A DNA stretch of 64,000 bases. It comes from Methanococcoides sp. Its GTDB lineage: Archaea > Halobacteriota > Methanosarcinia > Methanosarcinales > Methanosarcinaceae. Made by a program: the position numbers and the translations under genes. Shown here one piece after another: positions 56,826 to 59,722 of this stretch; the stretch's first letter is position 1; each line of letters opens with the position of its first letter. The notes under the pieces were generated by a model. It searched no databases. It was not told the DNA's origin and worked only from the letters and a program-made list of their open reading frames with translations. The stretch covers positions 1 to 64,000 of the forward strand of contig JAIORD010000043.1 in the NCBI GenBank assembly GCA_021108275.1. Direction: 5' to 3'.

Positions 56826-58289
56826 TCAAAGGGTTGAACTCAGAAGTTCGTCTATTTCTGCATCTATTTTTGCATCCAGGTCCATGTAAAAAGTGTGGTC
56901 ACGTATAAGGTTGCCTTCAAATTCTATGGTATCAAGGTGGCCGTACCAGTAGATTACCATTCCTGTGCCATAGTCCCTTTCATAATGCTGAAACTGCTTT
57001 TTAAAATAGTAGGTGTGCTCCTTTTCATCCCCGAACATTGCCTTACTTTCTATCCACTCGATCTCAGTACCATCAACATAGAGGGTCTTGTCAAGAAAAA
57101 AATCAGGTGTCTTCTGCATTCCCAGTTCTCTCAGGTCTTCTTCAGTGCTGTAACCTAACTTGTGGTGGTCAAGCCATTTGCCTATAATGTCCTCTCCCAT
57201 CTTTCCTTTTATAACCTGAAGTGCATGGGCTTTGGGGGAGAAGAAATGGTCCGAGTTGGTCGCATCTTCTATTTCGATCGCAAGTCTTCTGTTGTCCAGT
57301 GTGTCCAGATTCTTGAGGACATGCTTTTTAGAGTAACCCAGTTCCTTGATGATCACACTTGCCATTAAAGTAGCTGGGACATCATTATTCTGTGCCAGCG
57401 TATTGATGGTCATGCCCTTTTCCCAGAGGTATCGGAAGTTCTTTGCTTTATTCTGAAGCTGCCCCATCTTCCTTTTGACCTTTGAGACCGTTTTCTGATT
57501 GAGGATCGCTGCAATGACCCCTGTGCTTTCTTCAAATTCAATCGCTAATATATCTATATCTTCAAGTGTGTTTACCTGCTGATATATCTGGAGGTAGGTC
57601 TCTTTTTCCATTTTTAGTCCTCTCCCTTTGGTCAGTACACAGTCGTCGCACTGTTTCTTTCCACAGTAGTTCTTAGCATATTCCACTATCAATGCATGGT
57701 ATTCTTTATAGAGCGGCACATCTTCAGGAAGGCTCTTTTCGAACATCTCCTGAAGTTGCATATAATTGCCTTCAATACCGATACATTTCATCATCCTTGT
57801 TGTATAAGCATCGATCACGAATTTCGGCTTGTCAGCAGCGTAAAGGACGATACTATCAGCAGTCTCATTTCCCACACCATTGAGGGAAAGCATGAGGTTG
57901 CGTAATTCGGTTGTTGGCATGGAAAGGATATTATCCATTCCTTCCCTTGCAAAGAAGCCTGCAATATCTCTCAGACGTTTTGCTTTCTGTCGGTAAAAAC
58001 CACAACCTCTGACAAGTTCTTCAATAAGTCCCAGGTCAGCTCTCGCAAGTTTATCAGGTTCTATCAGATCATACTTCTTCAGACCTTCTATAGCCTTCTC
58101 GACATTGGTCCATTTTGTCTGCTGTGTCAGTATTGTGCCTATCACAACTTCAAAAGGAGTATCTGCAGGCCACCATTGAAGATGTCCTATCTTTTCGAGG
58201 AGTGCCTCGTAGATATCGCAGACATGTTCGTTTTTCATCTCTTTAAATGGATGTTCTCTTATTATATAACCATTTAAGTCCTCATCCAT
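56826..58289 (-). CDS. DNA-glycosylase-like domain fused to CDIN1/TPD-type nuclease
   Basis: A 487-residue two-part protein. Residues 25-220 are an HhH-GPD domain of the endonuclease III group: helix-hairpin-helix LNGVGNETADS (137-147), then D160 in VIDAYTTR. The catalytic Lys of bifunctional enzymes is absent (GVGNET), and only three cysteines (209, 214 and 217) remain of a cluster. The C-terminal half has an HTH-like region (about 285-325) and a PD-(D/E)xK domain of the TPD family, with PD at 395-396 and ESK at 414-416, closely like human CDIN1 (C15orf41): KTPDFFL, EWIESKAMFGDE and VIYWYG. A repair or structure-specific nuclease is likely. Confidence 0.8.
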   Translation of the reverse strand: MDEDLNGYIIREHPFKEMKNEHVCDIYEALLEKIGHLQWWPADTPFEVVIGTILTQQTKWTNVEKAIEGLKKYDLIEPDKLARADLGLIEELVRGCGFYRQKAKRLRDIAGFFAREGMDNILSMPTTELRNLMLSLNGVGNETADSIVLYAADKPKFVIDAYTTRMMKCIGIEGNYMQLQEMFEKSLPEDVPLYKEYHALIVEYAKNYCGKKQCDDCVLTKGRGLKMEKETYLQIYQQVNTLEDIDILAIEFEESTGVIAAILNQKTVSKVKRKMGQLQNKAKNFRYLWEKGMTINTLAQNNDVPATLMASVIIKELGYSKKHVLKNLDTLDNRRLAIEIEDATNSDHFFSPKAHALQVIKGKMGEDIIGKWLDHHKLGYSTEEDLRELGMQKTPDFFLDKTLYVDGTEIEWIESKAMFGDEKEHTYYFKKQFQHYERDYGTGMVIYWYGHLDTIEFEGNLIRDHTFYMDLDAKIDAEIDELLSSTL

Positions 58290-58361: not shown

Positions 58362-58844
58362 TTATTTCCAAAAGTCCTTCTCATAATCCTCGGAAATCTC
58401 TTCAAGGTCCATCATCTTGGTTAACTTGTCTTTTTTGTCGGTATCTTCTTCCGAAGGGGTGGCCTCATCGGCCATTTCTGTTTTGGGATCTGACACATGT
58501 GATTCTATCACAGTGGTATCCTTTGATTCCATCACAATGGTTTCTATTATCTCACTAATATGGGTGACCATCTCTCTCTTTTCTTCGATGGTCTCTTTTT
58601 TGATCGTGAAAATTTCTGGCGTATGCATCTCGATGGTTGCCTCAGAGCTATGTCCAAGTCTTTTGCGAGTCTCTTCAGCGTAGGTGTCGCGAGTAGTTCC
58701 TATCGGATCGCTTTGTGTGTGAGTCCCACGGTATCCGATGGAACAGTTCTCTTCCCCTGTACGCCAGTCTATATGGTAGAGGTAGCATTGCTCTTTCTTA
58801 CATCGGTGTTCGTTGTCCTGTGGGCATATATCGGGTAACGCCAT
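58362..58844 (-). CDS. Cys-rich acidic protein, unknown
   Basis: A 160-residue protein. The first 40 residues carry four cysteines and a WRTGEENC segment (CPQDNEHRCKKEQCYLYH, then CSIGYRG), a possible small zinc or iron site. The remainder is acidic, charged and probably disordered or coiled (TIEEKREMVTHISEIIETI). Not recognised. No ribosome-binding site precedes the ATG, so its message may be leaderless. It lies between prs and the glycosylase-nuclease gene on the same strand. Confidence 0.5.
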   Translation of the reverse strand: MALPDICPQDNEHRCKKEQCYLYHIDWRTGEENCSIGYRGTHTQSDPIGTTRDTYAEETRKRLGHSSEATIEMHTPEIFTIKKETIEEKREMVTHISEIIETIVMESKDTTVIESHVSDPKTEMADEATPSEEDTDKKDKLTKMMDLEEISEDYEKDFWK

Positions 58845-58873: not shown

Positions 58874-59722
58874 TCAGAGGTTCTTCAGGAAATCAGCAAT
58901 AAGCGGAGCAACACTGATGGTGCTTTGTGCTTTTTCAAGAGTGTCCGATGCGATGATCTCATGGACGCCAGCATTGTAAAGCCTTAATACTCCGTTCTTG
59001 GTAAGCACAGGATGCACGCATGCGATGTAAACATCTTTGGCGCCCTGGCTGCGAAGCAGCTTTATGGACTCTGCCATAGTGCCTCCCGTGGCGATCATAT
59101 CGTCGATGAGAATGATCTCTTTCCCTGTGACATCGATGTTCTTCGTCTTGATGGTGACAGTGTCCCCGGAATGTCTGGTCTTCTCAAGGTAATCGTACTC
59201 GATCCCCACATCTGCTGCGGCACTTTCTGCAAGGGCAATAGCTCCTTTGTCAGGCGCGATGATAAGGGGGTCTTCTAGGCCCAGTGATCTGATGTAATTC
59301 CCTATCAAATGGGATGCGTCAAGGTCAAAAGAATCCGCATTGAAGTGTTCGAGCACGCTCTTCTCATGAATATTGACCGTGATGACCCTGTCAGCATGGA
59401 TGGTCCGTGCAATTGCACGTGCACTGATAGCTTCTCCAGATCTGAACGCCTTATCCTGTCTTGCATAACCCATGTAAGGTATGACCACTGTGATCGTGGG
59501 TGCATCCTCGCAAGCATCGATAAGCTGTAACAGGGATACAAGGTCTGCGTCTGTGGGTGTGCTCTGTATAATGGTCACGTCATCGACAATATCTTCGATT
59601 ATCCTTGTATAGACCTCTCCGTCGGGAAAACGGTTGAATTCGCAAAGTGTTGGTTCCATATTTAGTTCTCTTGCCACACGTGATGCAAGTAACTGTGATG
59701 CAGGTCCTGCTATGATCTTCAA
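58874..59722 (-). CDS. prs: ribose-phosphate pyrophosphokinase
   Basis: A 282-residue PRPP synthetase of the archaeal class. The N-terminal KIIAGPASQLLASRVA, the pyrophosphate-binding TVVIPYMGYARQDKAF and the PRPP loop ILIDDMIATGGTMAESI are clear. It makes PRPP for nucleotides, histidine and NAD. The start is TTG, with GAGGT seven bases upstream. The 82-base gap to moaC leaves room for its own promoter. Confidence 0.94.
   Translation of the reverse strand: MKIIAGPASQLLASRVARELNMEPTLCEFNRFPDGEVYTRIIEDIVDDVTIIQSTPTDADLVSLLQLIDACEDAPTITVVIPYMGYARQDKAFRSGEAISARAIARTIHADRVITVNIHEKSVLEHFNADSFDLDASHLIGNYIRSLGLEDPLIIAPDKGAIALAESAAADVGIEYDYLEKTRHSGDTVTIKTKNIDVTGKEIILIDDMIATGGTMAESIKLLRSQGAKDVYIACVHPVLTKNGVLRLYNAGVHEIIASDTLEKAQSTISVAPLIADFLKNL

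Follow-up and report, generated by a model that had tools for sequence, protein, structure and literature searches.

A MagIII-like DNA glycosylase gene and a CDIN1-family gene joined in one Methanococcoides reading frame, probably by a recent 8-bp deletion

A single open reading frame of 487 aa, on the minus strand at positions 56826-58289 of a 64,000-nucleotide stretch of Methanococcoides sp. DNA (hereafter the window), joins an HhH-GPD DNA glycosylase to a protein of the TPD family (PF14811). The joined frame is most probably the product of a recent accident in one genome, in which two tightly spaced genes were brought together by a deletion of 8 bp. The human protein CDIN1 (C15orf41), mutated in congenital dyserythropoietic anaemia type I, is also a PF14811 member, and it is on this family that the likeness of the window protein to CDIN1 rests. 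The gene order in this genome is prs-orf160-glycosylase-TPD, the last two forming a tightly spaced operon, and the features concerned are as follows.

57624..58289, minus strand: HhH-GPD DNA glycosylase gene, MagIII-like, residues 1-222 of the fused frame (Pfam, phmmer, fold matches, alignment)
57609..57632, minus strand: fusion junction, with the 8-bp deletion ATCAAAAG between 57625 and 57624 (junction DNA comparison, gapped alignment)
56826..57611, minus strand: CDIN1/TPD-family (PF14811) protein, with a length of 261 aa when begun at its own ATG, which is M227 of the fusion (Pfam, alignment, AlphaFold2, weak fold matches)
58362..58844, minus strand: orf160, a conserved upstream protein and member of the syntenic block, adjoining TPD in the majority of Methanosarcinaceae loci that have sufficient flanking sequence
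58874..59722, minus strand: ribose-phosphate pyrophosphokinase (prs; name read off the sequence), heading the block and conserved in this upstream position in the majority of Methanosarcinaceae loci that have sufficient flanking sequence

The two halves of the reading frame

Both domains proposed in the first-pass annotation were recovered in the same frame above their curated Pfam cut-offs, with residues 50-187 matching PF00730 (HhH-GPD; E=5.9e-17, 62.4 bits vs a cut-off of 26.2) and residues 333-464 matching PF14811 (TPD; E=2.1e-45, 154.4 bits vs a cut-off of 27). The KTPDF, WIESKA and VIYWYG motifs read in the second half are likewise present.

The best sequence match of the glycosylase half is H. 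pylori MagIII (1pu6; phmmer, E=2.6e-25), and its fold matches are headed by 1pu7, with D. radiodurans Endo III-1 second and 1pu6 third, the identity to MagIII being 31%. NCBIfam also ranks MagIII top, through the equivalog PRK13913.1, at 111.8 bits under a cut-off of 192. On these comparisons of sequence and fold, the glycosylase is classed as a MagIII-like relative and is not assigned as a MagIII equivalog; MagIII, the closest family by both measures, thus replaces the MIG/MutY reference suggested earlier. We take the protein to be of the COG2231 type. Membership of the Endonuclease III, MutY or MIG groups was rejected on the basis of three cysteines without the four-cysteine Fe-S motif and of scores of 59.3 vs 211.7 bits for nth and 33.8 vs 286.5 bits for mutY. 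An 18-bit REase_II match to this half was not taken as an assignment, and PADLOC and PHROGs gave no weighty defence or phage assignment.

Alignment of 19 orthologues revealed that the catalytic D160 is not only kept, as first noted, but invariant, and that the position of the lyase lysine (GVGxK in Nth) is occupied by an equally invariant Glu142, in agreement with the reported absence of the bifunctional lysine. The C-terminal cysteines number exactly three (C209-x4-C214-x2-C217), all invariant in the same 19 sequences; the count behind the supposed lack of one cluster cysteine was therefore right, but three is the family norm and no defect. The proposal of a monofunctional-type enzyme held up, as the half is MagIII-like and has no catalytic lysine, and it is best read as a monofunctional alkyl-purine glycosylase. 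By analogy with the family, such an enzyme would remove alkylated purines, e.g., 3-methyladenine, leaving abasic sites.

The TPD half was modelled with high confidence by AlphaFold2 (pLDDT 93.8, pTM 0.88) as a set of helices followed by an alpha/beta core, corresponding to a helical/HTH N-terminal part and a PD-(D/E)xK-like core with E366, D396, E414, K416 and Q432 (fusion numbering). In an alignment of 24 sequences, with its own numbering, K165, T166, P167 and D168 and the E186-S-K188 triad are invariant, and the K-T-P-D, W-x-E-S-K and Q elements are unchanged from Methanosarcinales to Archaeoglobi-type genomes. Matches of the model to PDB folds were weak (Foldseek, best E=0.058, none with E<0.05, prob. 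0.6-0.7 at best), the leading ones being mainly PD-(D/E)xK proteins (BbvCI, AF1548, NucS and BsaWI) together with RPB5, of a related fold, while a sequence search of the PDB with the TPD profile returned no meaningful match. The earlier assignment of a PD-(D/E)xK-like core finds some support in the invariant TPD and ExK motifs, the confident model and these weak but consistent fold matches.

The gene pair in relatives

Of 295 genomes surveyed across the phylum, 90 carry PF14811. In 36 of 80 named loci the glycosylase lies immediately upstream of TPD, always as a separate ORF, and the intervals between the two genes fall mostly at -46 to +24 nt, where some values use the first start codon in frame and negative overlaps may be overstated. 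MagIII-TPD adjacency characterizes all 39 loci of one Methanosarcinaceae clade, is absent in Methanosarcina, ANME-2 and Archaeoglobi, and maps to one change on a tree built from 105 TPD proteins, which implies a single gain of the arrangement or a single loss of it elsewhere. Methanosarcina has the order prs-orf160-TPD with no intervening glycosylase, and in 27 Methanosarcina-type loci tblastn detected no glycosylase remnant in the interval from orf160 to TPD. About half of the TPD-bearing genomes, those of Archaeoglobi type, have no such glycosylase: at E<=1e-25, none of the TPD-bearing genomes of this family (f9, presumably Archaeoglobi on gene content) is among those listed as carrying this glycosylase type. 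Conversely, about half of the glycosylase genomes are without TPD, as are many glycosylase-bearing families.

Several other arrangements were recorded along the way. The product of orf160 (58362-58844, minus strand) is a conserved protein that contains cysteines, has no Pfam match and is retained between prs and the glycosylase/TPD pair in Methanosarcinaceae. In Methanosarcina (L175, L176 and L183), a divergent MagIII-like glycosylase with an insert after WWP and without the conserved three-cysteine pattern is encoded elsewhere in the genome. In ANME-2/Methanosarcinales, TPD lies directly downstream of aRF1 on the same strand, mostly at 6-51 nt, in 13 of 13 loci (L076, L077, L080, L121, L126, L128, L136, L141, L144-L147 and L149), an adjacency with one origin on the tree. 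In eight Archaeoglobi-type loci (L061-L066, L070 and L184), TPD is preceded by an ORF of 84-97 aa, usually overlapping and otherwise abutting, which resembles the C-terminal part of NMD3 (PF04981), a ribosome-related neighbour. In two Archaeoglobi-type genomes, the NMD3-like ORF and TPD are closely preceded by a true Nth gene (L066:5828-6505 and L184:3973-4596), a second and independent HhH-GPD neighbour.

One reading of these data, which is compatible with an accidental fusion and which we consider slightly favoured, is that the glycosylase and TPD have unrelated functions and owe their proximity solely to synteny inherited next to prs-orf160. It accords with the single origin of the synteny, with the Methanosarcina order, with the many genomes holding one gene and not the other, and with the aRF1 and often overlapping NMD3-like neighbours of TPD in ANME-2 and Archaeoglobi; it sits less easily with the tight spacing or overlap kept in all loci of the clade, though TPD there is only about 40-50% identical to that of the window, and with the Nth genes upstream of TPD in the two Archaeoglobi genomes. 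The TPD protein might cut DNA, and it may act in a common pathway with the glycosylase, given their conserved co-expression in one family.

Origin of the fused frame

When 40 relatives were searched with the fused protein, the halves matched separately in every congener, and in the three closest genomes they were 89-98% identical to those of the window. Reading of the junction in the 10 other Methanococcoides genomes revealed, in each of them, two separate genes, adjacent or overlapping, with stop codons between; even in one genome where both genes happen to share a frame (G022, L002), a stop codon and then an ATG part them. The nearest relative, Methanococcoides sp. SMBSF15 (L081), has 97.0% DNA identity to the window over 12.8 kb of gapped alignment, in which only two indels occur, one a 2-bp intergenic indel and the other the 8-bp junction deletion. 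The latter, the sole coding indel and one overlooked in the first-pass annotation, falls at 57624/57625 (ACCAAAGG[ATCAAAAG]GAGAGGACTAAAAATG), and M. alaskense and M. seepicolus differ from the window by the same 8 bp at the junction. As a result of the deletion, the glycosylase stop codon TAA is thrown out of frame and the two frames are joined. Short imperfect direct repeats, CAAAGG and CAAAAGG, flank the site, with which slippage fits. The SD-like GGGAGAGG and the ATG (57611-57609) of the second gene survive, 7 nt apart, so a separate CDIN1-like product may still be made. RNA structure at the junction is unremarkable (z=-1.2) and does not point to a programmed frameshift device. Each half remains intact and is subject to purifying selection, with dN/dS between species of 0.06-0.18.

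The same fusion was found in none of the 10 congeners and at no other place among the 90 TPD genomes or the 80 named loci, and only the genome of the window has an open frame of >400 aa (489 aa) among those 90. Of the original claim of a fusion, the real two-domain ORF stands, but an evolved fusion enzyme is not supported, in view of its absence from congeners and the other TPD loci covered and its origin in an 8-bp deletion. Briefly, the accidental fusion would have started from a two-gene operon of a MagIII-like monofunctional base-excision glycosylase and a CDIN1-family PD-(D/E)xK protein; slippage between the CAAAGG and CAAAAGG repeats would have deleted 8 bp, dropping the glycosylase stop codon and placing both genes in one frame. 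The fused protein would be a variant of recent date, probably close to neutral, and translation of the CDIN1-like protein could presumably still begin at its own ATG with its ribosome-binding site intact. It is also possible that the fusion brings a selected advantage or that TPD is no longer translated separately.

The first-pass annotation took absence of the fusion from other genomes as a sign of an assembly artefact; the fusion is indeed confined to this genome, yet a real recent mutation is likelier. An assembly or sequencing error, with the organism really carrying two genes like its congeners, would explain a junction private to one 60-contig draft and absent from every relative, but it is an unlikely account, as an 8-bp deletion is atypical of homopolymer error, 12.8 kb of comparison with the nearest relative contains no further coding indel and the short direct repeats at the junction fit slippage.

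As to the proposed hand-off of an abasic site from the glycosylase to the fused nuclease, the genome of the window encodes an AP endonuclease (Xth/ExoIII) together with two Nth proteins, by which abasic sites would be processed independently of TPD, making the hand-off unneeded for survival. A functional bifunctional repair enzyme, in which base removal by the glycosylase would be followed by cutting at or close to the abasic site by a TPD nuclease, is very improbable despite the family active-site residues kept in both halves, the purifying selection and the adjacency maintained throughout one clade, given a fusion seen in a single genome and produced by a frameshifting deletion, the abasic-site enzymes already present there and the fact that no nuclease activity was seen with human CDIN1 on many DNA and RNA substrates (PMC7261414).

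Relevance to CDIN1

The link between the two proteins had been presented as a direct clue to CDIN1 function. This is not sustained by a synteny of single origin in one family, when most other TPD genes adjoin unrelated genes and about half of the TPD genomes have no such glycosylase; with one evolutionary event behind the pairing, the evidence for CDIN1 function is weak, and the conserved pair in one clade is a modest functional lead. It is also rather unlikely that the pair constitutes a dedicated excision module in one Methanosarcinaceae clade, in which the CDIN1 relative would process the abasic site or damaged strand and the CDIN1 family would ancestrally have acted on damaged or abasic DNA; if this were the case, the natural fusion would be a ready-made test construct. 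Archaea are not known to have a Codanin-1 partner.

CDIN1 has no published activity (PMC13370696), and no activity was seen with the human protein on plasmids, single- and double-stranded DNA, forks, flaps, Holliday junctions and RNA, a set of substrates from which abasic and damaged DNA were missing (PMC7261414). Among the papers searched, none links C15orf41 to a glycosylase and none mentions PF14811. The archaeal pair suggests a cheap further class of substrate for CDIN1, alkylated or abasic DNA, as well as archaeal proteins to try. The varied neighbours of TPD (glycosylase, aRF1, NMD3-like and prs) warn against taking any one of them as its function, and the fusion illustrates that a single small deletion, where genes lie close together, can yield a 'Rosetta stone' protein liable to mislead.

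Comparison with known systems

The glycosylase half resembles H. pylori MagIII (1pu6/1pu7) in its WWP motif, catalytic Asp and Glu at the lyase-Lys position and in being its best sequence and fold match, and differs by keeping three invariant C-terminal cysteines and by its fusion to TPD in this genome. With Endonuclease III (Nth), which provides the next-best fold matches, it shares the HhH-GPD fold but has neither the catalytic lysine nor the four-cysteine cluster motif, and genuine Nth genes are located elsewhere in the genome. The TPD core bears a weak structural resemblance to NucS/EndoMS, AF1548 and other PD-(D/E)xK nucleases, with E-values >0.05 and no sequence similarity detected. Human C15ORF41 has an HTH-like N-terminal part and then a PD-(D/E)xK-like domain (PMC7261414), an order apparently shared by the window TPD half, which scores well over the PF14811 cut-off; the window protein differs from CDIN1 in being archaeal and in carrying, in this genome only, a glycosylase fused ahead of it.
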